Below, piece by piece: positions 1,706 through 22,319 of a DNA stretch of 43,422 bases. How positions within the stretch are numbered: the stretch's first letter is position 1; every line of letters starts with the position of its first letter. The notes beneath the pieces are model-generated. The model had not been told where the DNA came from. It did not search any database and was given only the letters and a program-made list of their open reading frames with translations. This DNA comes from Calditrichota bacterium (GTDB lineage: Bacteria > Zhuqueibacterota > Zhuqueibacteria > Thermofontimicrobiales > Thermofontimicrobiaceae), in assembly GCA_013152715.1 (NCBI GenBank), contig JAADFU010000001.1:1-43422 (forward strand), read 5' to 3'. A program made the position numbers and the translations under genes.

Positions 1706-4087
1706 TCATCGAATTCGTTCTAAAATCTTCCCATTTGTTCGAAAAACAACCGCGCCGGAGTAATCGGTGCGAGCAATTTTTATTTTCATTTTTTCTAACC
1801 GTTCAATCACCTCATCTGAAGGAAAACCAAATTTGTTCATTTTTCCCACGCTGATCACGGCAAAATCCGGTCTCACATTTTGCACGAATTCCTCGCAACT
1901 GGAAGTATTGCTCCCGTGATGGGCAATTTTCAGCACGTCCGCTTGCAAAAAATCGCCGTAGCGAACGAGCGCAACTTCCGCCTCTTTTTCGATATCGCCG
2001 GTGAACAGAAATTTTTTCTCCCCGTAAATCAATTTCAAAACGACTGAGTTGTTATTCACATCATCGGGATTCATGCGCAGAAAATCTTTCATCGGCTGCA
2101 ACGCAACCAAACAGTGTGAACCAGTGGAATCCAGCATTGTCGGCGCACTCACTGCCACGTGCTCCGCGTCGAGTAAAAATTTGTACAAATGACAAATATC
2201 GCTATCGTGGTAAATGCCGTTGTCCACCACACGCTGCACGCTGATGTGTCGCAAAATTTCCGGCAATCCGCCGATGTGATCATTGTCCGCGTGGGACAAA
2301 ACGATCGTGTCCAGATGGCGAATGTGTTTCCTTTTCAAAAAAGGCAAAATAAAAAAATCGGCCGCATTGAAATTTTCTGATTGGGGACCGCCGTCGATGA
2401 GCATATTCTTCCCGTCAGGAAATTGAATAAAAATGGAATCTCCCTGTCCCACGTCCAAAAATGTCACGTACAGCCAGTTATCATCGGAAAAAACCGAACC
2501 CCACAGAGAAATGTTTCCCAAAATCAGCGCCAAAAAAAGGGCGATTTTTGCCACGCGCTTTTTATTGATATTCAGAAAAATCCAAAGCAGAATGTAAAAC
2601 AAAACGACGAACTGAAAATTGCTCACAAAAACATCAGCCGACGCCCAGTGAAAATTTCCTGCGACGTTAGTCAGCGCGAGTAAAATTCGCGCGAACAAAG
2701 TATTGGCATAGGCAAAAATATCTCCGACAGCAAAAATCAAAAAAGAGAAAATCAGCGATGCAAAACCGTAAGCGATCACCACGCCCACCAGAGGAATCAC
2801 GATCAAATTCATGAAAACAGCGATCAGCGGCACGCGGTGAAAATAGTACACCGTCAGTGGCAGGGTTCCCAACTGCGCCGACAGCGAAACAAGAAACAGA
2901 GTGCCGATACTGTTGCCAAATTTTCCGACAGTCAATTTACGAAAAAGTGCGCTCTTTTCAAAGAGAATTTTTAATTTTTGGTAGCCATAAATGATGGCGA
3001 TCACTGCCGCAAATGACAATTGAAAAGATGCCTGAAACAAATCTTGCGGATGAATAAGCAAAATGATCAACGCTGCCGCGGAAATCACATTCCAGATGTC
3101 AATGGGGCGTTGCAGCCATTTTCCCAGCAGAAAAATTCCCGCCATCAACGACGCGCGCACGATGGGCGGTTTGAATCCGACGATTAGATTGTAGGCAATC
3201 AGTCCCAGAATGATGAGCAAATATCCCTGCCGTCGGGGAACGCGGAAAACGCCGAGCAGGCTCCAGAAAATGAGCAAAATATAACCTACGTGCAGCCCGG
3301 AAATTGCCAGCGCGTGAATCACGCCGCTGCGCGCGAACGAATCGCGAATGCGGTAGGAAATTTCGCTGCGCTCGCCGATGAGCAATCCTTTCAGCAGCGC
3401 CGCCACATCGCCGGAATAGAGTTTGTCGATTTGCTCCGCAATTTTTGCTTTCACTCTTGCCGCCAGCGCCAGAATTGAAAAGCTGCGTTTTTGCGGGAGA
3501 CAAATTACCTGCCAGTCTGAGCGAATGTTCACAAGACCGTAAATTCCCTGCGCCGCCAAAAATTTCCGATAATTAAAATCGCCGGGGTTTCTCTCCCCGG
3601 GCGGAGTTTCGATTTTTCCCAGAAATTTTAACCTATCGCCATAAGCCAATGGCAAAACGAAATTCCGCAAACGCAGCAAAATTTTTCCCTCGGTGGCATA
3701 GCTACGTCCCTGAAAGAGCACCGTATCCGGTTCAAATTCAATGCGCATACCGGAGTTTTTCTTTTGCGGAAAGCCGCAAACTTCGCCGGTAACGATGAGA
3801 TTTTCTCTGGTGTCGGTGAAATATTTGATGTGATTTTTTGAAAATAAATGGCTGGAAAGTGAAAGCCGCATCGCCCCAGCGGAGATGAGAGTGATGAGTA
3901 AAAAATAGCCGGCGAGTGGAGGAGAAAATTTTAAACTGACCAACGAGATAACAGCGAAGAAAATCAACATTCCAAAAATGAGTACAGGAGGCGGTTCCAG
4001 CAAATACGCCGCAATAATTCCCAGCAGAAAAGGGAGAAGAGCTTTCAGAGCCGGTTTGGTTTGCAATCGTTTGAGAATATCATCCAT
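1706..4087 (-). CDS. comEC: ComEC/Rec2-family DNA internalization channel protein
   Basis: Inner-membrane protein expected to carry single-stranded DNA across the cytoplasmic membrane during natural transformation. At 793 residues it has the full three-part layout. An N-terminal membrane and DUF4131-like region covers about 1-200. The polytopic Competence domain spans about 215-520 and carries the HALAISGLHVG motif at 258-268. A C-terminal metallo-beta-lactamase-like domain spans about 540-790. The last contains FLDVGQGDS, SHADNDH at 598-604, TGDIE and AHHGS, so its metal site looks intact. It lies 25 bases after coaE and 12 before pyk, probably as one transcript, a housekeeping setting rather than a competence cluster. 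No pilus or ComEA gene is nearby. A full-length ComEC does not prove that the cell is competent. Confidence 0.93.
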   Translation of the reverse strand: MDDILKRLQTKPALKALLPFLLGIIAAYLLEPPPVLIFGMLIFFAVISLVSLKFSPPLAGYFLLITLISAGAMRLSLSSHLFSKNHIKYFTDTRENLIVTGEVCGFPQKKNSGMRIEFEPDTVLFQGRSYATEGKILLRLRNFVLPLAYGDRLKFLGKIETPPGERNPGDFNYRKFLAAQGIYGLVNIRSDWQVICLPQKRSFSILALAARVKAKIAEQIDKLYSGDVAALLKGLLIGERSEISYRIRDSFARSGVIHALAISGLHVGYILLIFWSLLGVFRVPRRQGYLLIILGLIAYNLIVGFKPPIVRASLMAGIFLLGKWLQRPIDIWNVISAAALIILLIHPQDLFQASFQLSFAAVIAIIYGYQKLKILFEKSALFRKLTVGKFGNSIGTLFLVSLSAQLGTLPLTVYYFHRVPLIAVFMNLIVIPLVGVVIAYGFASLIFSFLIFAVGDIFAYANTLFARILLALTNVAGNFHWASADVFVSNFQFVVLFYILLWIFLNINKKRVAKIALFLALILGNISLWGSVFSDDNWLYVTFLDVGQGDSIFIQFPDGKNMLIDGGPQSENFNAADFFILPFLKRKHIRHLDTIVLSHADNDHIGGLPEILRHISVQRVVDNGIYHDSDICHLYKFLLDAEHVAVSAPTMLDSTGSHCLVALQPMKDFLRMNPDDVNNNSVVLKLIYGEKKFLFTGDIEKEAEVALVRYGDFLQADVLKIAHHGSNTSSCEEFVQNVRPDFAVISVGKMNKFGFPSDEVIERLEKMKIKIARTDYSGAVVFRTNGKILERIR

Positions 4088-4112
4088 TGCGTCGGAAAAA
4101 TTCGGTCAACAA

Positions 4113-4715
4113 TCACAACTTTTTCTGTAAAAATCGAATAAATTCATCCACTTCGTTCGCTAAATCTTCCAGCGTGCCGTCGTTGCGAATCACGTAATCA
4201 GCGCGGCGGATTTTCTCTTCCAGCGGCATCTGCGAAACAATTCGGCGCTCGATTTCCGCCTCGTTAATATCGTCCCGCTTTCTCAGCCGCTCAAAAATCG
4301 CCTTTCTCGAAGCACTGACGACAAGAATCACGTCGTAGTGAATATCAGAGCCAGCCTCGAATATCAGCGCCGCCTCGACGCCGGCGATGGGGCGCCTGCC
4401 TTTTTGCGCGATTTTTCCCAGCAATTGATGTTCGTACTGAATAACCCGCGGATGGACGATGTCGTTCACCTTCCCCCGCATTTCAGGATCGGAAAATAAA
4501 ATTTCCGCCATTCGTCCCCGATTCAATTTTCCGTCAGGCTGGTAAATTCCTTCACGCAAAAGATCAACCAATTGCGCTCGAATTTTCGGATCGTGATTCA
4601 TCAAAATTTTCGCCAGCCGATCCGCAGCAAAAATGGGGATTCGCCTCTGACGTAAAAGATGACTGACTTCAGATTTGCCGCAGCCAATGCCGCCGGTGAT
4701 GCCGAGTTTTAGCAT
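4113..4715 (-). CDS. coaE: Dephospho-CoA kinase
   Basis: Catalyses the last step of coenzyme A synthesis, phosphorylating the 3'-hydroxyl of the ribose of dephospho-CoA. The 200-residue length is normal. The P-loop GITGGIGCGKS lies at the N-terminus, followed by the ADRLAK segment. The CoA-domain motifs VNDIVHPRV, VEAALIFEAG and LRKRDDINEAEIERRI are present, and the end carries ADYVIRNDGTLEDL. No strong Shine-Dalgarno precedes the ATG at 4715. It is the first gene of the coaE-comEC-pyk run on the minus strand. A short dispersed repeat (4741-4795) sits directly upstream. Confidence in the function is high. Confidence 0.96.
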   Translation of the reverse strand: MLKLGITGGIGCGKSEVSHLLRQRRIPIFAADRLAKILMNHDPKIRAQLVDLLREGIYQPDGKLNRGRMAEILFSDPEMRGKVNDIVHPRVIQYEHQLLGKIAQKGRRPIAGVEAALIFEAGSDIHYDVILVVSASRKAIFERLRKRDDINEAEIERRIVSQMPLEEKIRRADYVIRNDGTLEDLANEVDEFIRFLQKKL

Positions 4716-4740
4716 TTATTCAATTTGTTTTTTTGCACGC

Positions 4741-4795
4741 GGACACACACGGATTCTGCGGATTTGCACTGATTTATCAATTAATTTCCGCAGAA
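4741..4795 (-). repeat. Intergenic ATCCGTG-type repeat (copy B) with a 9-bp inverted repeat
   Basis: TTCTGCGGA at 4754-4762 pairs with TCCGCAGAA at 4787-4795 across a 24-base loop. Read on the minus strand the segment contains CAGTGCAAATCCGC and ATCCGTGTG, related to the copies at 157, 14551, 19441 and 31299. It lies between the DUF433 gene and coaE. There is no T-run after it, so a rho-independent terminator is not supported. Confidence 0.4.
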
Positions 4796-4929
4796 ATTCG
4801 TTCGTAAGTGTTTATCAACGTTCTATTATTTCATCTCTTCTGTGTGATTGATTGTTTTTTGAAATATCAAAATTATTTTTTTAAGATAAGTGACAACTCA
4901 TTAGCTAACACTTTCACCCACTACTATCT

Positions 4930-5202
4930 TCATGAAATTGATATCTCTTTTTCAGTTGCTAAATATGAAGCGTATTCGAGGCACGCCTTGATATCTTCGA
5001 TTGTAATCCCCGGAAAATTTTCTAAAATTATATCAAAACCATCACCAGCAGCCAAATGGCTTAAAATTATATGAACCGGAATGCTAATTCTCTTTAGGTA
5101 AGAAAATCCACTACAAATTTTTGAATATGAAAAATAATTCGTTCTTTGATTTATATTATTATATATGAATGACCAGTTGGAAAATTTTAAGTAAAATAGC
5201 AA
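4930..5202 (-). CDS. DUF433-family protein, possibly decaying
   Basis: Small protein resembling DUF433, a winged-helix-like family often found as the DNA-binding antitoxin of toxin-antitoxin pairs. The C-terminal half fits well: SIPVHIILSHLAAG, then ILENFPGITIEDIKACLEYASYLA. The segment before it, ICSGFSYLKRIS, aligns in register with the usual ICxGKPxIKGTR, but the Gly-Lys-Pro and Gly-Thr-Arg positions are replaced. The only start that includes the whole domain is TTG at 5202; no Shine-Dalgarno is evident. The usual DUF5615-type partner is absent downstream. I read it as an orphan or degenerating antitoxin. It could also be a functional divergent copy with a different start. Confidence 0.5.
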   Translation of the reverse strand: MLFYLKFSNWSFIYNNINQRTNYFSYSKICSGFSYLKRISIPVHIILSHLAAGDGFDIILENFPGITIEDIKACLEYASYLATEKEISIS

Positions 5203-7747: not shown

Positions 7748-10702
7748 TTACTTCAACAAGAGCAATTTTTTCGTATTTTTGTATTTTCCGGCAACTTCCA
7801 GTTGATACAAATAAACGCCGGTGCCGACAATTTGTCCGCTCTGATCCCTGCCGTTCCACTGCACTCGATGTGTACCGGCAGTTCGCAGGCCACTTTCGAG
7901 CGTTCTGACAATTTCGCCATTAATATTGAAAATAGTCAAGTTAACGTTGGCTTTTTCCGGCAGATTGTAACTAATGCTGGTTTCCATGTTGAACGGATTG
8001 GGAAAATTTTGCTTCAATTCATAACGATCCGGCACCATGGCTTCTGTGGTTGGCGTTTCCACGGCAGAAACACTACCCTCAAAAATTTCGACGTCATCGA
8101 TCAAAGCGCCGATGGACGGATTCTGCCCGTCAGAGACAAAATGAAATCTCACGTACACCTTCGTGACACCTGACGTAATCAAATCACTCAAATCCACCAC
8201 ATGCTGCTGCCATTTGGCGTAGTAATTTCCTGTCATGGTGTACAATTTCTGCCAGTTCACACCATCCGTGGAAGCTTCAACGTACAGGAAATCTTTATCC
8301 GCTTCGATGAAATATTTTGCCCAGAATTTCATCTTCATCGCATTAATCGTGGTCACGTCAAATCCGGGCGTAAAAGTCATCATCGCGTCCATGTTGTTGT
8401 TGTAGGGCACTTTGCCGCCATTGACATGAATGGATTGGCCGCCTGAATGAGCGGACATTTTTGTCAAGCCCCAACCGCCGGAGAGATTCCAAAAGCCTGT
8501 TTCATTTTCAAAATCATCCACCAAATTGGAAACATTCGAGGCTGAATGAAAACTATTGTTGTAAGTATTGTAGTCACCGCTAAAATTTGGCAGCGAAATG
8601 TCAAAATCAACCTGGCCTGACTCAGTAAACAGATATGGCTTGAACTGCACCACTGTTTCCCCCCAGGAAGCCAAAGAAGTGATTCGAGAAGTATCCTGAT
8701 AAATGATGCTGCCGTTCTGCGTACCGGTAATTACCAAGTCAACGTTTGTCTCGGTGCTGGCACCCTCGTTGCGGATTTTCGCGCCCAGAGAAATCGGGAA
8801 AAATAATGGAATGCTCTGTCCTGGTAAAGTGACATCAGTTAGCGACAAATCATGTTGCGGCAACGCTACATCTATCTGCCAGTTAAAGCTCAAAATTTCC
8901 GGATTATTAGAATTGTAATCCAAATACACAATTCCTTTGTAGCTGCCGGCATCTAATTTTTTGGCATTGATAATCAAACCTAATTCAGCAGTGCCATTGG
9001 GCTGAATAACGCCAACGCCATTTTCCAGATTAAACCAATCAGTAACGAACTCTGCGCCTTTACCATTCCGGACTATCGTACTATCATCGTCACCATGGTT
9101 TTCATAAATTGTATTTGAGCCGTCGGCAACCTGAATTTCGTCAACAAAGAAACCTTTTAAACTCGGATCATCCGGCGTGCTGTAGCCCATGTCTGAAGCC
9201 AGCGCAAAACGGATGATGACGCTGTCTGATTTGAAAGCTGACAGATCAAACTCCGCAGGCTTCCAGCCATAGCTTTGACCGCCCCAGCCGGGGATCCCGA
9301 TTCCGTAATTCCAGCCTTGTTCCGGATGACCGAAACTCCACATACTCTGGCAGTTGTAGGCTGGTGTCGTCGGCTGCAGGACAGAATATGTGGCGCCGCC
9401 GTCAATAGAAACCCACACATTGCAGCCATCCCAACCGTCGTAATTCGGATCAGCATCTGAAGCGCCGGCAGGATCTTCCACCGCCCATTTTACCAAACAA
9501 TCCAATTTTGGATTAGTCGTTGTTGTCAAATCAAGCATTGGCGTTTCCATCCATTGCAGCCAATGATCCTGATAGCCGCCGATTTCCGGATCGCCGCACC
9601 ACCATGATTGACCGTCGTATGACTCAAAGTCATCAGTGTGGAAGAAAAATTTAGTCAAATAATCGGTCGCGGCGTAGTACAGTGGCTGTGAACCAGTATT
9701 TTTCAAATTTACCAACTGGACGACGGAGTCACCGCGCGTGAATGAGTATTGGTATTCGTTCTGTTCCAAGGAAAGAGAACCGTTATTGGTCAACCCGTCC
9801 CAAATAAATGGGCTCCAACTTCCCATATTGCTATTATTCCACTTAATGCGAAAATACCCTTTCTCGCCCCAATTTTTTCCCCAGCTATTTTTAACGATCC
9901 AACATTGTAAATCGTCTTCCCAGCCCACGATCAAAACTGCGTGCCAACCAATAGACTGGCCGTACACATGTTCGTAAACGCCGCTGCTGTAAGCATTGAA
10001 ATCCTCGAACACTTCGTAGCTAACAGACAACGGGTGCAAATAGACCGCATTTTTTATTTTTTGTATGTCAACTTCTTCCTGAGTCACATATCCCCAGCCG
10101 GGTATTGTGATTTTTTTACTTTCCCAGCCATCGCGGACACTGTCGCAGGGGACAGTATCGTCGGCCTGATATGACATATATTCTTCCGGAGGAACGCCGG
10201 TGTCTTTAATGAAGTCCAGCGCTCCGGAAATTGACCATCCGTTACAAGTTCCGCCGGAGCATGATAAGACGAACTGTTCCGATAAATCAATGGTAGTATC
10301 CGGTAGATTATTTTTTATTTTCCACCACGTTTCCACCTGCGCCACTGCGGAAAAATCCCAGCAGCTTCCGCAATTTGCCTGGTTCGTGACCGGCGTCAGC
10401 CAGTCGCCATTATTATTTCTCCAGTCAAATTTTGCGGGGAGATCATTTTGCGTTGGCAGCTCAATTATTTTGGCCTCCGAAGGATTGGGATGTTCGGGAA
10501 TAGTACCAAGTAATTTGATTTGTTCTTCGCGCGGCAATCTGGTGACCCAATTCTCCCCGGCTGTCCAGCTCGCGCCTTTCGCTTTAATTGCCTGCTGTAT
10601 TTGGCTAATTTCAGTATTGTCCATCGCCGATGAAATTCCAAGCAAACAGTACAACAAAAACAGAACCGAGAATAGAACAAAAAATTGCTTTTTCTGGAAC
10701 AT
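7748..10702 (-). CDS. Secreted papain-family (C1A) cysteine protease with C-terminal sorting domain
   Basis: A 984-residue exported protein. Residues 1-26 are a signal peptide and 27-88 a short propeptide-like region. A C1A peptidase domain spans about 90-300. The catalytic set is visible: Gln108, Cys114 in NCGSCWDF, His254 in GWHAV and Asn272 in VKNSWG. The middle (about 310-640) contains a MAM/jelly-roll-like region that describes a fused adhesion or substrate-binding part. A CARDB-like beta segment around 640-760 and another jelly-roll-like domain before about 890 follow. The last 85 or so residues, starting at QNFPNPFN and ending in KKLLLLK, form a FlgD-Ig-like domain, as in type IX cargo. 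A CAGGAG Shine-Dalgarno supports the ATG. It is monocistronic, with its own terminator, and divergent from the Omp85 genes. Peptidase identity is firm; the export route is inferred. Confidence 0.93.
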   Translation of the reverse strand: MFQKKQFFVLFSVLFLLYCLLGISSAMDNTEISQIQQAIKAKGASWTAGENWVTRLPREEQIKLLGTIPEHPNPSEAKIIELPTQNDLPAKFDWRNNNGDWLTPVTNQANCGSCWDFSAVAQVETWWKIKNNLPDTTIDLSEQFVLSCSGGTCNGWSISGALDFIKDTGVPPEEYMSYQADDTVPCDSVRDGWESKKITIPGWGYVTQEEVDIQKIKNAVYLHPLSVSYEVFEDFNAYSSGVYEHVYGQSIGWHAVLIVGWEDDLQCWIVKNSWGKNWGEKGYFRIKWNNSNMGSWSPFIWDGLTNNGSLSLEQNEYQYSFTRGDSVVQLVNLKNTGSQPLYYAATDYLTKFFFHTDDFESYDGQSWWCGDPEIGGYQDHWLQWMETPMLDLTTTTNPKLDCLVKWAVEDPAGASDADPNYDGWDGCNVWVSIDGGATYSVLQPTTPAYNCQSMWSFGHPEQGWNYGIGIPGWGGQSYGWKPAEFDLSAFKSDSVIIRFALASDMGYSTPDDPSLKGFFVDEIQVADGSNTIYENHGDDDSTIVRNGKGAEFVTDWFNLENGVGVIQPNGTAELGLIINAKKLDAGSYKGIVYLDYNSNNPEILSFNWQIDVALPQHDLSLTDVTLPGQSIPLFFPISLGAKIRNEGASTETNVDLVITGTQNGSIIYQDTSRITSLASWGETVVQFKPYLFTESGQVDFDISLPNFSGDYNTYNNSFHSASNVSNLVDDFENETGFWNLSGGWGLTKMSAHSGGQSIHVNGGKVPYNNNMDAMMTFTPGFDVTTINAMKMKFWAKYFIEADKDFLYVEASTDGVNWQKLYTMTGNYYAKWQQHVVDLSDLITSGVTKVYVRFHFVSDGQNPSIGALIDDVEIFEGSVSAVETPTTEAMVPDRYELKQNFPNPFNMETSISYNLPEKANVNLTIFNINGEIVRTLESGLRTAGTHRVQWNGRDQSGQIVGTGVYLYQLEVAGKYKNTKKLLLLK

Positions 10703-10975: not shown

Positions 10976-12196
10976 ATGACTTACTGCAAACGAAACGCCG
11001 GACTCACTTTTTCCCTCATTCTCTTCTTTATTTTCCTTGCAACCGCGCCGTCAGCATGGGGGCAATTCAAAATCGAAAAAATCGAGACTGCCACGCAAAG
11101 CCTTTTTGAGGGAGAAAAAGGCAAAATTGACGTGACGCCTGCTTTGCGCTACAACCGCGTGCAAGGATTTGTTGTTGGCGCCGATGCCACAATTGCATTG
11201 AGCAGTAGCAAAAAAATCGACCTGCTGGGACATATCAGCTACGGATTCAAAGATGAAGTGCGTTACATTGGCGGCCTGCAAAAATCTTTTTTTGAGTTCA
11301 GTCCCCTGACAATCGGCATACGTTACCAAAATGTTGTCGCTTCGCAGGATGACTGGTTCATCAGCTACAATGAAAATTCCGCTGCCGCGCTGTTTCTGAA
11401 AGAGGATTTCATGGACTATTTCGTAAAAAAAGGCTTGCTGGGATTCATCGACCAGAAGATCGCCGAGAAACACACGATTCGGCTCGAAGTGGAACAATCG
11501 CGATTGGAGCCAATTGAGAAAAATACCAACTGGGCACTGTTTGGAAAAAATAAAAATTTCAGGGAAAACCCGCTCGTCAAAGAGGAAGACGTCACCAGCT
11601 ACCGGCTTGTGGGCGCGCTGGACTGGCGCGATAATCCGCTCATGCCCATGTCCGGCTGGTACATCGAAGGGAAAGGCGAGCTCACTAAAGGCGATTTTTT
11701 TGACACCAAAGGAATTTTTCTCACAATTAAAAAATATATGCTTTTGTTCAGCAATCACTCTCTCCGTTTCAAAACCATGATCGGTAGTCGCAGCGGATGT
11801 AAGCCGGACGCCAATTATTACACCATGGACATGGGCGGCATCGGCGCGCTGGTCGGCTACAAAGACAAAGAATTCAAAAACGGCAATCGGTTTTTTTACG
11901 CCACTGCTCATTATTTATTCAACAACACTTTGCTGGGGAAATTGCCACTGGGATTCATTCCGTTTTATGACCAGCTTTCGTTGGGCATTTTTGCCGAGAG
12001 CGGCTGGTTAGATTTTGATTTTGCTGATGAAAATGTTTTTTCCGGTTTTAAAAGCATGACTTTCGCTGACATGAAGTCGGATGTCGGAGTCAGTTTGTAT
12101 TTGACGGAAGGGCTGGCGCGAATCGACTTTGCCAAACGCACCGACCGCGGGAAAGATGCCTGGCGCGTGACGTTTCGGATTATGAATCGGTTTTAA
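10976..12196 (+). CDS. Omp85/BamA-type outer-membrane barrel without POTRA
   Basis: A 406-residue outer-membrane protein. Residues 1-29 are a signal peptide. The rest is a predicted beta barrel with the phrase TPALRYNRVQGFVVGADATIAL near its start, as in the surface-antigen D15/BamA-like barrels of FCB bacteria. LDWRDNPLMPMSGWYIEGKGEL in the middle resembles the DxRDNPLxPxxG signature of Omp85 barrels. The last residue is Phe (IMNRF), typical of Bam-inserted proteins. There is no POTRA domain, since the mature protein begins almost directly with barrel. A CAGGAG Shine-Dalgarno precedes the ATG. It is 119 bases upstream of another Omp85 gene. The substrate is unknown. Confidence 0.85.
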   Translation: MTYCKRNAGLTFSLILFFIFLATAPSAWGQFKIEKIETATQSLFEGEKGKIDVTPALRYNRVQGFVVGADATIALSSSKKIDLLGHISYGFKDEVRYIGGLQKSFFEFSPLTIGIRYQNVVASQDDWFISYNENSAAALFLKEDFMDYFVKKGLLGFIDQKIAEKHTIRLEVEQSRLEPIEKNTNWALFGKNKNFRENPLVKEEDVTSYRLVGALDWRDNPLMPMSGWYIEGKGELTKGDFFDTKGIFLTIKKYMLLFSNHSLRFKTMIGSRSGCKPDANYYTMDMGGIGALVGYKDKEFKNGNRFFYATAHYLFNNTLLGKLPLGFIPFYDQLSLGIFAESGWLDFDFADENVFSGFKSMTFADMKSDVGVSLYLTEGLARIDFAKRTDRGKDAWRVTFRIMNRF

Positions 12197-12315
12197 TTAA
12201 ATGTTTTCAAAACACTGGCGTCAATTTTCGTACAAGCACTTCATTCGCTTATCTTTGCAATTCAAAAAGAGAATGACGGTAGCTTTCGGGAATTTTTTAA
12301 TTCAGGGAGTTTCTA

Positions 12316-13653
12316 TTGCAAGACAGAACCATCACCTTCTATTTAGCAATTTTCACATTAATAATTTTACCGTTTTCCGTCGCGGCCCAGGTTTATTTCA
12401 ACAATCACATTTTGGACCCGGCTGGCAATGGCGACACGGCGTCGGTTTTTCTGGGCAAAATTGAAATTGTCGGCAACAAAGCAACCAAAGCCGTCATCAT
12501 TCACCGGGAACTGCTTTTTTCGGAAAAGCAAAAAGTGACCTTTTCCCAGATTTCCGCGGCACAAAAACGCCTCGCCAGTCTGGAATTGTTCACCCAAGTG
12601 CGCTTCGATATTGTCGGCGATGAAAAATACAGCACGCTCATCATTACGGTTTACGAGCGCTGGTACGTTTATGCAGCGCCGATTTTTTACACCAATGAGC
12701 GGAGTTGGAAAAAACTCTCCTACGGCGCGCAAGGCAGATATTACAATTTTCTGGGCAGAAACATCACGCTCAAACTCACAGCAGCATTCGGCTACAATCC
12801 TGAGTTTCGATTCCAATATGAAAATCCCTGGTTTTTTGGCAATTGGCGATTATTTACGCAATTCAAAGCCTACAAAGGAAAAGTTCAGGCAAAGAATTTC
12901 GAATTGGATCAGTTAGAATATAAATCCCGAGGGATCGACTGGCTGGTCGGGAAACGATTTGGCCATTTTCTTTTTTTCGGACTGAATTTAAGCTATCAGC
13001 AAATCAAAACTGACTCCGGCTCAAAACTCACTGTTTCGCCATCAGGGAAAGACAACAAAATAACGTTTATCAGCAGCGTGCAATATGACAACCGCGATTG
13101 GAAGGAATATCCCCATCGCGGCTGGAATATCAACTTTTGGGGAAAACGGGTGTCCGTGAATCACAGCCATTCCTATTATCGTTTCGGCGGAGATGTTCGC
13201 ACTTATATGCCGGTGACAAAAAAAACAACTTTGGCGCTGCGCGCGGCATCCAGTTTCAAAGCCGGAGACGTGCCGCTCTACGACCGTGTCTTTTTTGGTT
13301 ACGATGAAAGAATTCGCGGAAGATTCAATCAAATCGTGGAAGGCGAACAATTGCTCTTCGGTGGCGCCGAATTTCGTTTTCCGATTTTGCCTATTCGCTA
13401 CATTGCACTTCCCTCGGTGGAACAGTTGGAATATTATTCCAGTCATTTGAAATTTGGCATCAGCGGCGCTCTTTTCGTGGAAACGGGAGCGGTCTGGTAC
13501 GAAAATCAGGCGCTTACCGCGGATATTTTTCGTTCGGGATTTGGCGCCGGCATCCATTTTCATCTGCCGTACGTCAATCTGCTCCGCGTGGAATTGGGTC
13601 TGAACAGCACCTGGAAAGCCGAAGCCATTATCGAAGTCGAAGCTGCTTTTTAA
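12316..13653 (+). CDS. Omp85-family outer-membrane protein with a single POTRA domain
   Basis: A 445-residue outer-membrane protein. The start is TTG at 12316, supported by CAGGGAG seven bases before it and by a signal peptide (about 1-24) ending in AQ. A single POTRA-like domain lies at about 45-114 (GKIEIVGNKATKAVII to LIITVYERW). A 16-strand-type barrel follows at about 120-445. The motif VQYDNRDWKEYPHRGWNINFWG is the Omp85 D-x-R-x-x-x-x-P-x-x-G signature, and RIRGRFNQ resembles the VRGF/Y loop-6 motif. It ends in Phe. With the preceding barrel it forms a likely pair for outer-membrane insertion or export; the two may work together, but this is not shown. Confidence 0.88.
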   Translation: MQDRTITFYLAIFTLIILPFSVAAQVYFNNHILDPAGNGDTASVFLGKIEIVGNKATKAVIIHRELLFSEKQKVTFSQISAAQKRLASLELFTQVRFDIVGDEKYSTLIITVYERWYVYAAPIFYTNERSWKKLSYGAQGRYYNFLGRNITLKLTAAFGYNPEFRFQYENPWFFGNWRLFTQFKAYKGKVQAKNFELDQLEYKSRGIDWLVGKRFGHFLFFGLNLSYQQIKTDSGSKLTVSPSGKDNKITFISSVQYDNRDWKEYPHRGWNINFWGKRVSVNHSHSYYRFGGDVRTYMPVTKKTTLALRAASSFKAGDVPLYDRVFFGYDERIRGRFNQIVEGEQLLFGGAEFRFPILPIRYIALPSVEQLEYYSSHLKFGISGALFVETGAVWYENQALTADIFRSGFGAGIHFHLPYVNLLRVELGLNSTWKAEAIIEVEAAF

Positions 13654-14593: not shown

Positions 14594-17500
14594 TCAAAAT
14601 TTGTAACTCAACCCAAACGATGCATTTTCCCAGAATTGACCGCCGGGCGTAGTATCCCGATCGTAAATAAACTTCACGATGGCATTGAAAACAACGTACT
14701 GCGTCAGTCTGACATTCAGCCGCTGCTCCCAGTAAATATCCAATTTTCGCCAGTTTTGATTCGGGTCTTTTTCTTTGGTAATCGAGGAAATGACGGCTTG
14801 AAAAAATTTCAACTTTCCATCGAGCACGGCGCCTTTTTTGATTTCAGAATGATATTCAGTCAGCCACTCGATTCCGCCGTCGATTTTCACTCCTCTGGAT
14901 TCGTCTCCTGTCCACAGTTTTCGGAATTTGCGCTGCGTAGTGAAAAATTCATTGGACGCGTAACCCACTCGTGTTGTGACTTTAAGTTTCTTTTTCCGGA
15001 TTAAATTTCTCGCTACGCCGGCGCTTTGCGACATTTTTAGCGGGTTGGCAAAACGGGAAATTATTTTTTTTGTTTTCGAATCGTATCCTTCGTGAAACTG
15101 CGTGCTCGCGGAAAATGCCACATAGGGGTCGATGAATTTTTCCAGCGTCAATTTCAACACCGAATCAAAATCGATCACGTCTGTGGACTTCTCCGGCGAG
15201 CGCCATTTTTCATCTTCTTTAACGGTGATTTGCCCGAAGGCAAGATAGAGCGAGTTTTTCCAGTTGTACTTTTTCCTTTTGTACAAAAAATTCATCCGAC
15301 TGTAAATCTTCCAGGTAAAATTGCTCTTGCCGCCGCCTTTCCAGTTGCTGTTAAATGCCAACTGATTGGCGTCAAGCCCCACCGTAATATCGCGCGTCCA
15401 GTAGCGAGGACCAACTTTGAACGGCGGCTTGAAAAAAGGCAGACTCCAGTAATGATCAAACCAGCCGTAATCTGTCCAGGTCGAATAATCATTTTGGGAC
15501 ACATTATTCCCGATGACGACAAAATCATGGTCAAAAATTAAATTGGCATCTTGAAAATCCGATACTTTTTCTAAATTTTCAAGTCCGCTCGTATCTCGCG
15601 CGAAACAAACCAGAATCAAATTCGCCGGACTTTGTGGATTGGGATAAATGAAAAGCGCAGCGCCGCCCTGATCATAGTAAAACATTTTTCCCAGACGAAG
15701 TCCCGGCCCATGAATTTGAATGGGCAATTTTCCCTGAATTTGTTTCAAAAATGCATTGCTCTGGTAATTGCCGAAAATCACAAAATTCGCGTCGCCGGTT
15801 TTTTTGAGCGCCAGCGTGTCCGGCAATAGCATTTTTTTTAAAAAATCACTATTCCCCCGACGCACGCTTTGTCGTGCCAGTTCGTAAGTGTAGTGATTAT
15901 ATTTCTCGTCATCGCCAATGGAGCTGTAAACGAAATAAACTGTTTTGTCGAAAATTGCGCGCATGGGGCCAGAACAGCCTGGCGATTTTTCCAGCGTTTC
16001 CGAATTTGTCTCCGTTTTATTCCATTCGTTCGCTTGCCAAAAAAAATAACTCTTGCCTGATTTCCTTCCGGCGAGCTCGAACTCGAATCTGCCATCAACA
16101 AACACGCGAGCGGGAAATTTCAGTGACTCCGGCAACAAATCCGGCACGAGGGCAAATTGGGACAAATTTTCCGTGGAAATCATCACTTTGTCCGAATCCA
16201 CTCGGGCGCGGAAGAAAGCGACTGACCCGTAATTTTCCTGTCCTAAAATTTCAACCCAGCCGTAACGCGCCGGTTTAAGCTGTTGGATTTCCAGCGTGAT
16301 TTGGCGCGGTTTGCGATTTTTTCTCTGCTGCAATAGCCAGTGCAGATATTCGCCGGCAAACACAGGCGCAAAATCCTGCTCCGGAAAATTTTCAAATTCG
16401 CGCAGGCTGACTTTCCCGCCATGCTTTCGTAAAAATTCAATCTGCTCAGCGATTTTCACTTTTTTCGCCGGAGTGGTATCGATCCACAGCGGCAGCAACG
16501 CCAGATTGGACAACTGCCGCTCATCTTGAAATTCCGGCACAAACAGTGTCAGCGCTACGAACAAATCAGGATTTCTCTTCGCCAATTGCATTGCAGCAGC
16601 AGCGCCGGAGCCTTCAGCAGCGAGAAAAATGCGCGACTTATCGGTGTTGAAATTGTCGCCGGCATGATGCAAACAATCCAGAATTTCATGCAATTGGAAA
16701 AATGAAACCGCCGTTTGAGAATATTCGGGGATGAAAATTCCGATCATTGCCAGATCTTTTTGTGTGAAAATTTCTCCCATTCGGCGGGCGATTTCTTCGG
16801 CATTGTCGCGGCGATCGTGGAGAAACAGATAGACCGGATAAGTCTTGTGTTCGTCATAATCCGGCGGTAGGAAAACGAAATAACGCCGGTATCGCTGCTC
16901 ATATTTTGAAAAATAAAATTTTTCCAAAATATGATTTTCGTGATCAAAATAGACCTGTTTTTTCATGTAAAAATTGGGAATCAATTCCACGCGGCGGCGC
17001 GCTGCCATCATTACCTGATAAAAATCAAAATTTGTTTTCGCCCGTTTTAGTTGATTTTGCAACAAATCGATCCAGTTTTCCACAGTGACGCTCGCTGAAG
17101 GATCGATTTGTTTCACGTTCTTCATCATCGCCGCCTGCTGCGACAAATAATCAATCTGTTCAGCAATAAATTCTTTTGACCAGACTGAAATCTGATACTG
17201 TTGAGATGTTTTCACAGAATTGACGGCGAGCGTCAAATTCCCCCAATTCAAGAATTTCGGCGGAATCGCCAGCCGCGTCCAGCGCTGTCTTCTCAGTGTC
17301 ACCCGTTTGCGAAAAAGAACCTCGCTGGCATTGGAGAGCATAAATTCTACATTTTTGCGATAGTAGCGGCAATACGCCCAGACAAAAAGTGTGTCTTCCG
17401 TGGACAAAAAAGTCTGCGTGGGAATTGCCTGCGTGAAAGTGACGTTGGGATCGAACAAAATTACCGTGGCAAAGGGCAGGGTAAATTTCTTGCGCGTCAC

Positions 17501-18163
17501 GCCCGGCGTCCATTCGATCCAGCCGCGGAAATCACCACCGTCATTATCGAAAAACACCGTTGAAACGCCAATATGCATGCCGGCTGCCGGTTCAGTCATT
17601 CCCAAAGCTTGCCAGGGAATGAGAATTTCATATCGCAGTGTATCGCCGCGCGCGACAATCGAAACAGGAAAATTTCGATAACCGGAAACCCGCTGTTTGG
17701 CGTAGCAAAATTCGTAAACAACCGCCTCACTGTCCGCAAAAGTCGCCACAAATTCCCGGTCGTCATTCTGGTAGGCGTCGGCGTTGTTGTCGTCCTGCAC
17801 GTCGATAGCGAACTGAAAACAATCATTTCGCCACACATCGCGTCCGGTGAACGGAAACGAAAGGGAGTCATCCACAACTTCAGCGGCAAGCGCCAATCCC
17901 CAACTGTTCCAACCGATCCAAAATTTTCCGCTCAAATCGTTTTTTCCGCCCCAGGTTCCGCTGCGATATTCAGTCTGGTTCTGTTTGTCCAGCACAACCG
18001 CAGGCAAACTTCTCCACTCGGAAAGAGAGCTGTCTATTTCAGTGAAATGTCTCAGCGCAACGTAAAATAATCCGTCGTTCGAATTCGGTTGAGATGAAAA
18101 GACTTCAGTAATGTGCATCACAATCAACAAAGTCATCAGAACAAAAAATTGTATTTTTCGCAT
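14594..18163 (-). CDS. Secreted CBM9-like / esterase-like / DUF3078-type barrel fusion
   Basis: A 1189-residue envelope protein. Residues 1-23 are a signal peptide. About 30-240 is a CBM9/DOMON-like sugar-binding domain with IGWNSWGLALAAEVVDDS and FQFAIDVQDD. A mixed region follows, helical at about 335-395. About 400-615 resembles a D-type (Esterase D/FrsA-like) alpha/beta-hydrolase: YFVFLPPDYDEHKTYPVYLFLHD, then KSRIFLAAEGSGAAAAM. The nucleophile elbow there reads E-G-S-G-A (Ser519) instead of GxSxG, and the usual His segment near 595-600 lacks a clear His. About 740-890 is a further alpha/beta region. About 915-1189 is an outer-membrane barrel starting GLDANQLAFNSNWKGGG, the DUF3078 hallmark, and ending in YKF. 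The hydrolase part is therefore probably held at the outer membrane and may be a binding or inactive form. No strong Shine-Dalgarno is seen. Confidence 0.75.
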   Translation of the reverse strand: MRKIQFFVLMTLLIVMHITEVFSSQPNSNDGLFYVALRHFTEIDSSLSEWRSLPAVVLDKQNQTEYRSGTWGGKNDLSGKFWIGWNSWGLALAAEVVDDSLSFPFTGRDVWRNDCFQFAIDVQDDNNADAYQNDDREFVATFADSEAVVYEFCYAKQRVSGYRNFPVSIVARGDTLRYEILIPWQALGMTEPAAGMHIGVSTVFFDNDGGDFRGWIEWTPGVTRKKFTLPFATVILFDPNVTFTQAIPTQTFLSTEDTLFVWAYCRYYRKNVEFMLSNASEVLFRKRVTLRRQRWTRLAIPPKFLNWGNLTLAVNSVKTSQQYQISVWSKEFIAEQIDYLSQQAAMMKNVKQIDPSASVTVENWIDLLQNQLKRAKTNFDFYQVMMAARRRVELIPNFYMKKQVYFDHENHILEKFYFSKYEQRYRRYFVFLPPDYDEHKTYPVYLFLHDRRDNAEEIARRMGEIFTQKDLAMIGIFIPEYSQTAVSFFQLHEILDCLHHAGDNFNTDKSRIFLAAEGSGAAAAMQLAKRNPDLFVALTLFVPEFQDERQLSNLALLPLWIDTTPAKKVKIAEQIEFLRKHGGKVSLREFENFPEQDFAPVFAGEYLHWLLQQRKNRKPRQITLEIQQLKPARYGWVEILGQENYGSVAFFRARVDSDKVMISTENLSQFALVPDLLPESLKFPARVFVDGRFEFELAGRKSGKSYFFWQANEWNKTETNSETLEKSPGCSGPMRAIFDKTVYFVYSSIGDDEKYNHYTYELARQSVRRGNSDFLKKMLLPDTLALKKTGDANFVIFGNYQSNAFLKQIQGKLPIQIHGPGLRLGKMFYYDQGGAALFIYPNPQSPANLILVCFARDTSGLENLEKVSDFQDANLIFDHDFVVIGNNVSQNDYSTWTDYGWFDHYWSLPFFKPPFKVGPRYWTRDITVGLDANQLAFNSNWKGGGKSNFTWKIYSRMNFLYKRKKYNWKNSLYLAFGQITVKEDEKWRSPEKSTDVIDFDSVLKLTLEKFIDPYVAFSASTQFHEGYDSKTKKIISRFANPLKMSQSAGVARNLIRKKKLKVTTRVGYASNEFFTTQRKFRKLWTGDESRGVKIDGGIEWLTEYHSEIKKGAVLDGKLKFFQAVISSITKEKDPNQNWRKLDIYWEQRLNVRLTQYVVFNAIVKFIYDRDTTPGGQFWENASFGLSYKF

Positions 18164-19563: not shown

Positions 19564-20310
19564 TTAATCCACCAACACATCTTCCCGGTCCCGTTTGCCA
19601 AATGAAGGAACAAATTCCTCATCTTCATCCGCTTGCCCCATTTCGATGTCTTGTTCCTCATCATCTTCCGGTTCAAATCTTTCCATCTCGTAGTGACGTT
19701 TGCGACGCACCAGATACCACGCCATCACGCCCACAATTAATCCAATCGCCACAATCGTCAAAATGATCGGAAAAAGACTTGACTCTTTCACATCGCTTTC
19801 AGCGGCGCCATTTTCGACAGCAATTGCCGGAACGGGCTCGGCTGCGACTTTTTCAGTTTGTGCTTCCTCGCTCGGCGGCGCAACTGATTTTTCCGCGGAG
19901 GTCTCCGTAGCTGTTTGTTGCTCCTGAAGCTGTGTTTGTGACGCTAAAGGCGTCGTGGAGACGTTGTGATTTTTCGCGATCCAATCTTTCTGATCTTCCA
20001 CAATTGAATTCACCCTTGTCAGGCTCCGGGAATGATGCAATTTCTTGACCGCATCCAGATTGGGAATAATCACTTCTTCCCCGGGAAAAACCAAATCTTT
20101 ATTCGGCGCGCGATTCACCAACGCCAATTCGCGCCAATACTTCGTGGTTCCGTAGTACTGTTTGGACAATTTGCTGAAATAATCGCCCTTTTGAATGATG
20201 TGTTTCGTCGGCTCATTGAAGAGCATTTTTTTACACCACAGCAAATTCTCTTCCGAATACATACCGACAACCACCGTGACCAGTATGAAAATAACCAGTA
20301 ATTTCTTCAT
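19564..20310 (-). CDS. LysM-domain membrane protein
   Basis: A 248-residue protein with an N-terminal signal or anchor segment (1-19). A LysM domain lies at about 35-85 (HIIQKGDYFSKLSKQYYG to NRAPNKDLVFPGEEVIIP) and is predicted to bind peptidoglycan. A low-complexity linker rich in Glu, Ala, Thr and Pro follows at about 115-175. A transmembrane segment spans about 179-201, then a very acidic tail (DDEEQDIEMGQADEDEE). An AAGGAGG Shine-Dalgarno precedes the ATG. Topology suggests an inner-membrane protein that touches the cell wall in the periplasm and carries a charged cytoplasmic tail. Its function is unknown. Confidence 0.82.
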   Translation of the reverse strand: MKKLLVIFILVTVVVGMYSEENLLWCKKMLFNEPTKHIIQKGDYFSKLSKQYYGTTKYWRELALVNRAPNKDLVFPGEEVIIPNLDAVKKLHHSRSLTRVNSIVEDQKDWIAKNHNVSTTPLASQTQLQEQQTATETSAEKSVAPPSEEAQTEKVAAEPVPAIAVENGAAESDVKESSLFPIILTIVAIGLIVGVMAWYLVRRKRHYEMERFEPEDDEEQDIEMGQADEDEEFVPSFGKRDREDVLVD

Positions 20311-20524: not shown

Positions 20525-21637
20525 TCATTGCTGAAAGTAATTGGTAATTTTTACATACTTTCGACCAATCCAGCCAATGCGGCGGCGCTTCAATTTAATT
20601 TTCACCCAACCACCATATTCCGCGAGCACAATAAACTGCTGCCCTTTCTTCGCAACCGCTACCACCGGAAAATTTACGCCCGGGCCAGAACGAATATTCA
20701 ACTGCCCAACTTTGACTATGGCTCGAGGCGGCGAGTGTTTGGCTTTGGATTTGAAGCTAATGGTAACATCAAAAACATGAGATAATTCATTACTGAGCTG
20801 GTGATTCAAAACAGCGTAATTCAAACTAAAAACCATGTTTCTCAACTCTTGCACCAAACCTACGCCTAACGCCAATTGATTTTCCTGCCACCCCATTCTT
20901 AACCGCAGCGGAGAGGAGATTTTGACTTCAGTGCCCGCTGAAATGATATTTTTGCTGCGATAACCAACTGCAACGAGCGCTCCCGGCGCTAATTCGTAGG
21001 AAACACCCACACTGCCCACCTTTTCGAAATGGTCTGCGTGTCCGGTTTCCCACGCCAATTTTTCCCGAAAATCATTCAATGAAGCGCCAACGCTGAGTTT
21101 TTCTCCTAATCTGTAAATGAATCCAAAGTCGACTCCCCAGCCGGAGGCATAGTGCTCATCCAATGTTTGACGAAGCAAATTAGCCGAAAATCCCAGAGCA
21201 AGGCTCCCACCGATTCTTCTGGCATAAGTGAGACCGACCATCTGTTCCACGTTGTTAAAAAGATAATCCGACTGTGCCGTGTTGGACGATCTCGCTTCAA
21301 TATCATTAATCAAAAATCCTTTCCAGAAAACGCCAAATTTATCATTCCTGTCCACGGGAAGGACTACTGAAACGAATCCGACTTGACGATTGAATGCGAT
21401 TCTCGCATGACTCATGCCAACAAAAATATTTCGCGAGAATCCGACGCCGGCCGGATTCCGCTGACCCGCCAGATAATCTTCACTGACCGCCACAAAAGAC
21501 GATTTGAACACCATCGCCCTCGCGCCGACGCCAAAATTGGTAAAAAAATTCTTCTTCTTATCCGCCGCTTCAAGCGTCAACGCGTTTAACACAAACACGG
21601 CTAACAATATTATTTTCAATATCTTACTTCTCATCAT
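20525..21637 (-). CDS. PorV/PorQ-family outer-membrane protein with C-terminal SH3 domain
   Basis: A 370-residue outer-membrane barrel. The start is taken at ATG 21637, after GCGGAGAAA; the first residues form a signal peptide ending near EAAD. The motif FGVGARAMVFKSSFVAVSEDYLAGQRNPAG is the N-terminal signature of the PorV/PorQ-type proteins, whose PorV member is the outer-membrane shuttle for type IX cargo. The barrel runs to about residue 300. The final 65 residues (VGQLNIRSGPGVNFPVVAVAK to GWVKIKLKRRRIGWIGRKYV) form a bacterial SH3 domain, which usually binds peptidoglycan or peptides. It lies 16 bases after a small FN3/sorting-domain gene. Which member of the PorV/PorQ group it is cannot be told. 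Confidence 0.82.
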   Translation of the reverse strand: MMRSKILKIILLAVFVLNALTLEAADKKKNFFTNFGVGARAMVFKSSFVAVSEDYLAGQRNPAGVGFSRNIFVGMSHARIAFNRQVGFVSVVLPVDRNDKFGVFWKGFLINDIEARSSNTAQSDYLFNNVEQMVGLTYARRIGGSLALGFSANLLRQTLDEHYASGWGVDFGFIYRLGEKLSVGASLNDFREKLAWETGHADHFEKVGSVGVSYELAPGALVAVGYRSKNIISAGTEVKISSPLRLRMGWQENQLALGVGLVQELRNMVFSLNYAVLNHQLSNELSHVFDVTISFKSKAKHSPPRAIVKVGQLNIRSGPGVNFPVVAVAKKGQQFIVLAEYGGWVKIKLKRRRIGWIGRKYVKITNYFQQ

Positions 21638-21653
21638 TTTCTCCGCATTAAAA

Positions 21654-22319
21654 TTAACGCACCACTGCAATCGTCACCACTTTCACAATAAAGTCGTAGC
21701 GAATCACAGCAAAATAGACGCCATTGGACGCTACGGCTCCTTGTTCATTTTTACCATCCCAAACATCTTCGGTGTGCTCGCCCGCTGGCTTGCGAGTCAG
21801 AGGCAGTAGCTGCCGCACAAGTTCATCGTTCACATCGTAAATGTCAATCGACACTTTGCTTGTTTGTGGCAGAACATAACGAATTACTGTTCTCTCTTTG
21901 TCCGGATTGAAAGGATTGGGAAAATTGTACGCCCTGCCGTCATCGCCGGAGCCGGGCTCTGTATCAGGTTGATTTCTTATTTCAAAATAGACTTCTTGCG
22001 AAAATTTGCTCTCATTGCCGGCAGTGTCGTAGGCAGTCACGGCAAAAAAATAGCCGCCTGGCGATAAATTTTCTATCGGGCATATCGTATCCGCCCCCGC
22101 TGCCTTCCAGTGGCTGTAATTTCGCGATTCCGTACCCCAGTAAACGCGATAGCCGGCGACGTCTTTTTCCTGATTTCGATTCCACTGGACAATCACGGAA
22201 TGCCCGGACAATAAAATCCAGAATAATAAAATGAACACAATGTTCAAATATTTTTTGTGACGATGTACTCCATTTTCCGGTTGGAGCGCATCTTTCGTAT
22301 TTAAATATTTTTTTTCCAT
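21654..22319 (-). CDS. Small secreted FN3 protein with FlgD-Ig sorting domain
   Basis: A 221-residue exported protein. A hydrophobic segment at about 24-42 serves as a signal or anchor. A fibronectin type III-like domain spans about 43-115 (VQWNRNQEKDVAGYRVYWGT to GGYFFAVTAYDTAGNESKFS). The last 90 or so residues begin at YNFPNPFNPDKERTVIRY and end VKVVTIAVVR, the FlgD-Ig pattern of C-terminal sorting signals. The ATG at 22319 is followed by a long basic stretch before the hydrophobic core. It is first in a pair with the PorV-like gene, 16 bases apart, so cargo and shuttle-like protein share a transcript. Confidence 0.78.
   Translation of the reverse strand: MEKKYLNTKDALQPENGVHRHKKYLNIVFILLFWILLSGHSVIVQWNRNQEKDVAGYRVYWGTESRNYSHWKAAGADTICPIENLSPGGYFFAVTAYDTAGNESKFSQEVYFEIRNQPDTEPGSGDDGRAYNFPNPFNPDKERTVIRYVLPQTSKVSIDIYDVNDELVRQLLPLTRKPAGEHTEDVWDGKNEQGAVASNGVYFAVIRYDFIVKVVTIAVVR

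Follow-up and report, generated by a model that had tools for sequence, protein, structure and literature searches.

A CBM9-like domain, a triad-less esterase fold and a DUF3078 barrel joined in one predicted outer-membrane protein of a Calditrichota bacterium

The window analysed here, a stretch of 43,422 nucleotides from a Calditrichota bacterium (GCA_013152715.1, contig JAADFU010000001.1, positions 1 to 43,422), encodes a single chain that is exported and combines a CBM9 domain, an esterase fold lacking its catalytic triad, a companion module and a C-terminal 12-stranded DUF3078 barrel; this anatomy is computed. We propose, with roughly even confidence, that the fusion protein is a non-enzymatic, outer-membrane-anchored glycan receptor or tether, for which we infer the ligand, the partner and the side of the membrane.

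Results

Layout of the chain

A first-pass annotation of the window had described a frame at 14594-18163, naming no strand, with several domains in one chain. The frame is present on the minus strand and runs without interruption from the ATG at 18163 to the stop at 14594, giving 1189 aa. The domain order is borne out by domain searches, structure prediction and single-chain orthologues, the signal peptide by the N-terminal sequence and a hydrophobic helix at 2-21 in the model, and the chain does end in YKF. The features are as follows.

14594..18163, minus strand: whole gene, 1189 aa, single frame including the stop; full-length orthologues L002, L003 and L005 and partial L004
18092..18163, minus strand: signal peptide region, residues 1-24 (MRKIQFFVLMTLLIVMHITEVFSS); from the sequence and the hydrophobic N-terminal helix in the AlphaFold2 model
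17444..18076, minus strand: CBM9-like domain, residues 30-240; Pfam PF06452, Foldseek, alignment with 7nwn, conservation
17180..17431, minus strand: Ig-like beta domain, residues 245-328, lying ahead of the esterase-like domain; AlphaFold2 strands at 245-327
16970..17176, minus strand: helical segment, residues 330-398; AlphaFold2 helices at 330-348, 355-373 and 378-393
16319..16969, minus strand: alpha/beta-hydrolase (feruloyl/CE1-esterase-like) putative pseudoenzyme domain, residues 399-615; phmmer and Foldseek matches to 3wyd, triad loss
16610..16612, minus strand: Gly518, at the nucleophile position; alignment with orthologues and catalytic relatives
15464..16303, minus strand: middle module, residues 621-900 (beta-rich 621-717, alpha/beta 741-900); without a Pfam name, common to catalytic esterase relatives
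15401..15463, minus strand: low-confidence linker, residues 901-921; pLDDT <50 at 903-920
14597..15400, minus strand: DUF3078 12-stranded outer-membrane barrel, residues 922-1189, last residue aromatic; Pfam PF11276, AlphaFold2, Foldseek
15329..15370, minus strand: DUF3078 signature ANQLAFNSNWKGGG, residues 932-945, spanning the end of strand 1 plus the first long loop; sequence, alignment, AlphaFold2

The full chain was modelled with AlphaFold2 from a 49-row alignment (mean pLDDT 80, pTM 0.56); most domains are modelled with confidence, but not the way they are placed relative to one another. The predicted elements (CBM9 30-240, Ig-like 245-328, helices 330-398, alpha/beta 412-612, module 621-900, disordered linker 903-920) agree with the domain order claimed earlier. 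Searched with the full model, Foldseek found esterases (3doh; 3wyd, TM 0.81), CBM9 modules (7nwn, TM 0.74; 1i82, TM 0.73) and outer-membrane barrels. The alignments to 3doh span 461-464 columns, a length that suggests, and in part leads us to infer, an Ig-plus-esterase arrangement in the model.

The CBM9 domain

A CBM9/DOMON-like domain had been proposed at about 30-240, and its CBM9 fold in the Foldseek comparison is matched by a significant Pfam hit to CBM9_1 (PF06452) at 64-219 (E=4e-12, 46.8 bits against a gathering score of 23.4), a profile that also takes in CBM9-like domains for which sugar binding is unproven. The aromatic clamp of the solved CBM9 7nwn is formed by Tyr89 and Trp191 (PMC8280721). 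W111, invariant among the orthologues, aligns with Tyr89, and the conserved F/Y212 or W215 aligns with or near Trp191; because this alignment is weak (E=0.0027) and stops just before Trp191, the choice between F212 and W215 is uncertain. The clamp positions thus appear, in sequence alignment, to be kept in the fusion protein. The 7nwn domain, which shares the fold, is a module of a secreted xylanase-esterase (Caldicellulosiruptor Xyn10C-GE15A) and not of an outer-membrane protein.

The DUF3078 barrel and its orientation

The barrel placed by the first-pass annotation at 915-1189 is indeed predicted: DUF3078 (PF11276) matches residues 933-1027 (Pfam E=1e-15, 58.2 bits against a cut-off of 25), the characteristic phrase ANQLAFNSNWKGGG is found at 932-945, and 12 strands lie at 922-1188 both in the full-chain model and in a barrel-only model built on an alignment that included stand-alone DUF3078 members. 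The barrel sequence profile found no relative among solved structures. With the barrel alone, Foldseek returned the autotransporters EstA (E=5e-7) and NalP as well as COG4313 and FapF at TM about 0.4-0.5, matches that back the fold class only.

The strand connections alternate between long and short (12, 3, 19, 6, 11, 2, 17, 2, 15, 4 and 3 residues). Because of this alternation, and by the usual rule for outer-membrane proteins, both termini, and hence the arm that precedes the barrel, would be periplasmic. The main rival to the receptor or tether reading is autotransporter-like display, in which the barrel would bring the arm to the surface in a type V-like manner, as in EstA and NalP, and the CBM9 domain would bind an external polysaccharide. 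The order of signal peptide, passenger and C-terminal 12-stranded barrel of ~270 residues fits this, display at the surface would be fitting for a CBM, and the EstA autotransporter of Pseudomonas (3kvn), the best Foldseek match of the barrel, likewise places a 12-stranded barrel at the C-terminus behind an esterase-type domain, with the NalP translocator also among the best matches. However, a TM of ~0.4 is generic barrel likeness only, no sequence similarity between EstA and the fusion was found, DUF3078 usually stands alone without a passenger, and it is not a known autotransporter family. EstA is an active esterase of a different fold (GDSL) and has a pore helix; in the fusion, AlphaFold2 predicts no helix before strand 1, residues 901-921 being an unstructured, low-confidence linker. 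We regard self-display as unlikely, though worth keeping in view. A bolder form of it, that KSB1 bacteria have turned a duplicated DUF3078 barrel into the translocator of its own glycan-binding pseudo-esterase passenger, so that DUF3078 would be an unrecognised type V-like translocation domain, seems to us improbable.

The barrel could also be an accessory of the type IX secretion system (T9SS), whose cargo, secreted or glycan-modified, the arm would handle. The DUF3078 protein PG1786 of P. gingivalis (PF11276) is a predicted T9SS component on the basis of species distribution (PMC5053529; PMC9722745), and SprA occurs in all 12 genomes of the order; since SprA is near universal, its co-occurrence with DUF3078 says little. 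Against this, ten phylum genomes, six of them >=90% complete, have SprA_N without DUF3078, three have DUF3078 without an SprA_N match, and no T9SS machinery gene was recognised adjoining the fusion gene. Across 82 genomes of the phylum, the distribution of SprA_N and DUF3078 therefore leaves a T9SS component unsupported, and we give this explanation little chance. No Por_Secre_tail or CHU_C match, indicative of a T9SS C-terminal sorting domain, was found by Pfam in the fusion protein; its C-terminus is the last barrel strand.

Loss of the catalytic triad

The hydrolase-like domain is below Pfam significance (Hydrolase_4, E=0.21). An alpha/beta-hydrolase-like domain at 400-615, as first proposed, is nevertheless backed by a phmmer match of residues 426-610 to the solved LC-Est1C (3wyd; E=4e-5) and by the Foldseek match to the same structure. 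In alignment, the nucleophile Ser is replaced by Gly518, the loop of the acid (Asp) is deleted and the catalytic His is replaced in all five orthologues, while the 11 catalytic relatives sampled all keep the Ser, together with GxSxG, HGxxD and the catalytic His. The first-pass annotation had pointed to an elbow EGSGA and a missing His. The His is indeed absent, as is the Asp, but EGSGA (residues 517-521) is of the GxGxG type and its Ser lies one residue off the classical elbow position; the alignment register, which puts Gly518 at the nucleophile position, rules this Ser out as the nucleophile. Loss of all three residues upholds the suggestion of an altered hydrolase, hinting at binding rather than catalysis, and judged by its sequence the domain is a conserved triad-less pseudoenzyme.

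A hydrolase that is still active by unusual chemistry, with CBM9 for targeting and the barrel as its anchor, would account for the retained esterase fold, the invariant LH motif of the oxyanion-side His449 and the purifying selection described below. It is hard to reconcile with the loss of three catalytic positions in every orthologue, the invariance of Gly518 and the location of the esterase region in the less conserved half of the chain, and we consider it very improbable.

The further alpha/beta region noted at 740-890 is borne out as part of a module of ~280 residues (621-900) that also occurs in catalytic esterases. As a phmmer query the module matched no solved relative. Catalytic esterases with this unnamed module, marked by the motifs GPI.D.F, VYGT and YPNP and lying outside Pfam coverage, are L027, L041 and L044, and the module is, from these alignments, a candidate new domain family. 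L027, which is encoded in the same genome as the fusion, and L041 (Peptidase_S9/feruloyl-type esterases) resemble the fusion protein in esterase domain and middle module (~21% identity over 417-908); they differ in having an intact Ser-Asp-His, a carbohydrate-binding NPCBM at the C-terminus in place of the barrel, and no CBM9_1 match.

Orthologues and locus

A search for the same domain order in other genomes gave three further full-length chains within the order: G003 (51% identity), G011 (45%), which belongs to a different family within the order, and G005 (40-41%). The unbroken frame is found in four species, this one included, and spans several genera. A homologue of the same genus in G001 (78% identity) is partial, running off the contig end. 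Of the order's 12 genomes, 5 carry the fusion; beyond the order, a class search of 63 genomes gave no full-chain match, and within the 82 phylum genomes examined the fusion is restricted to this order. DUF3078 frames over the Pfam cut-off in those 82 genomes are all of 180-450 aa, except four fused ones of ~1,200 aa. A contig scan with two CBM9-domain patterns found the same-order fusions, one distant CBM9 match (a Lentisphaeria record) and nothing more, a scan that remote fusions could escape because both patterns lie within the CBM9 domain.

The gene is flanked in G000, G003 and G005 by a rhomboid gene upstream and a convergent RsmE gene, followed by an Omp85-type barrel gene. The G011 copy lies elsewhere, between oxidoreductase-like and beta-glucosidase-like genes (named by sequence inspection). 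G006, of the same family and another genus, is a clean natural site without the fusion gene: at L106 (G006:C564, 727-1492) the rhomboid-RsmE gap is ~37 bases with no gene inside. Separate genes might be suspected of having been joined by an assembly artefact, a frameshift or read-through, given that stand-alone DUF3078 and CBM9-pseudoesterase genes occur elsewhere. However, relatives have single-chain, full-length orthologues, with the same single frame and a conserved junction in independently assembled genomes at 40-51% identity, and with conserved flanking genes in two of those genomes. These orthologues rule out read-through or misassembly, to which we attach a negligible probability.

A promoter and terminator scan gave no informative excess. 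Elsewhere in the window are two Omp85-superfamily genes in succession (10976-13653), the first also matching DUF5686; a 984-aa protease of the papain family (C1) whose C-terminal region resembles FlgD/Por_Secre_tail (7748-10702) and which is probably a type IX secretion substrate; a protein whose LysM match is borderline and which has a strongly acidic tail as well as a C-terminal transmembrane segment (19564-20310); and a DUF5723-like protein (weak match) with a C-terminal SH3 domain (20525-22319), adjoining a protein that matches FlgD-type and, weakly, CHU_C type IX sorting domains.

Constraint and origin

The CBM9 domain and the barrel are the best-conserved parts (63, 52 and 50% and 67, 59 and 49% identity to the orthologues, respectively) and the esterase and module the least (esterase 31-38%; esterase plus module 24-39%). 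Against the same-genus homologue, dN/dS is 0.053 for CBM9 and 0.085 for the pseudo-esterase, compared with 0.069 for the neighbouring rhomboid gene, values that are rough because dS is high. By this sequence measure, the pseudo-esterase is still under purifying selection and shows no decay.

In a tree the fused barrels group together in a single clade (100/100) that excludes the stand-alone DUF3078 proteins, and the genome keeps a stand-alone DUF3078 copy besides the fusion; a single fusion of a divergent DUF3078 paralogue is thus the simplest reading. At L031 (2501-5220), the next gene after that stand-alone copy, in the same orientation, codes for a protein that carries a type IX sorting domain. 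With midpoint rooting, the G011 sequence nests inside those of the other family with modest support (88/79), a tree position compatible with transfer between families.

L025 (G010, 2237-5170) is a barrel-less CBM9-pseudoesterase-module protein with the same Ser-to-Gly replacement and without the other two catalytic residues; its end coincides with the end of the module, and a macrodomain-like gene (named by sequence inspection) comes next. Because this barrel-less protein shares the losses, catalysis was probably lost before the barrel fusion. The fusion would have arisen when a DUF3078 barrel joined a CBM9-pseudoesterase-module protein resembling that of G010.

Comparison with known architectures

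The first-pass annotation knew of no described protein with this order. In favour of that view, DUF3078 frames other than the fused ones do not exceed 450 aa, and within the literature searched, the papers mentioning DUF3078 describe no such architecture; searches on DUF5916, on inactive esterases with outer-membrane domains and on KSB1 glycan use found nothing specific. However, CBM9-DUF5916 proteins (PF06452 and PF19313) are common in the same genomes, so that the domain plan is less isolated than claimed: DUF5916 occurs in 12 of 12 genomes of the order, with CBM9_1 in front of it in 4 of 4 proteins scanned. Like the fusion, they carry an N-terminal CBM9-like domain and a large C-terminal region, which we take to be a predicted outer-membrane barrel; they differ in having DUF5916 instead of DUF3078, no esterase-fold or middle module, and a length of ~700-900 aa. 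The fusion protein (P0001) has no PF19313 match in Pfam. Stand-alone DUF3078 proteins such as PG1786 share a homologous barrel (24-34% identity) and the same signature, but consist of the barrel only (~290 aa) and form a clade separate from the fused copies. A CBM9 domain with a C-terminal (predicted) barrel domain is already known as a plan, and it is the DUF3078 version with an intervening pseudo-esterase that appears undescribed within the 82 phylum genomes and the literature searched.

Discussion

We propose the following course for the receptor or tether. The chain would be exported by Sec, and the barrel, with its C-terminal Phe, would be inserted by the BAM machinery. The arm of ~900 residues would remain in the periplasm, since by the topology rule the N-terminus enters strand 1 from the short-turn side. 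There the CBM9 clamp would hold an oligosaccharide or a polysaccharide end, while the pseudo-esterase, together with the companion module, would offer either a scaffold or another surface for binding. Two roles would be open to the protein: receiving glycans that have come in by way of the barrel, or tethering the outer membrane to some polymer of the periplasm.

The fusion is the sole DUF3078 architecture found here that links this widespread barrel of unknown function to a recognisable activity, glycan binding, and would therefore offer a first handle on the role of DUF3078. It also presents a case of a conserved triad-less esterase kept under selection within a predicted outer-membrane protein. 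Should the arm prove to lie on the surface, this would hint at a new display route.
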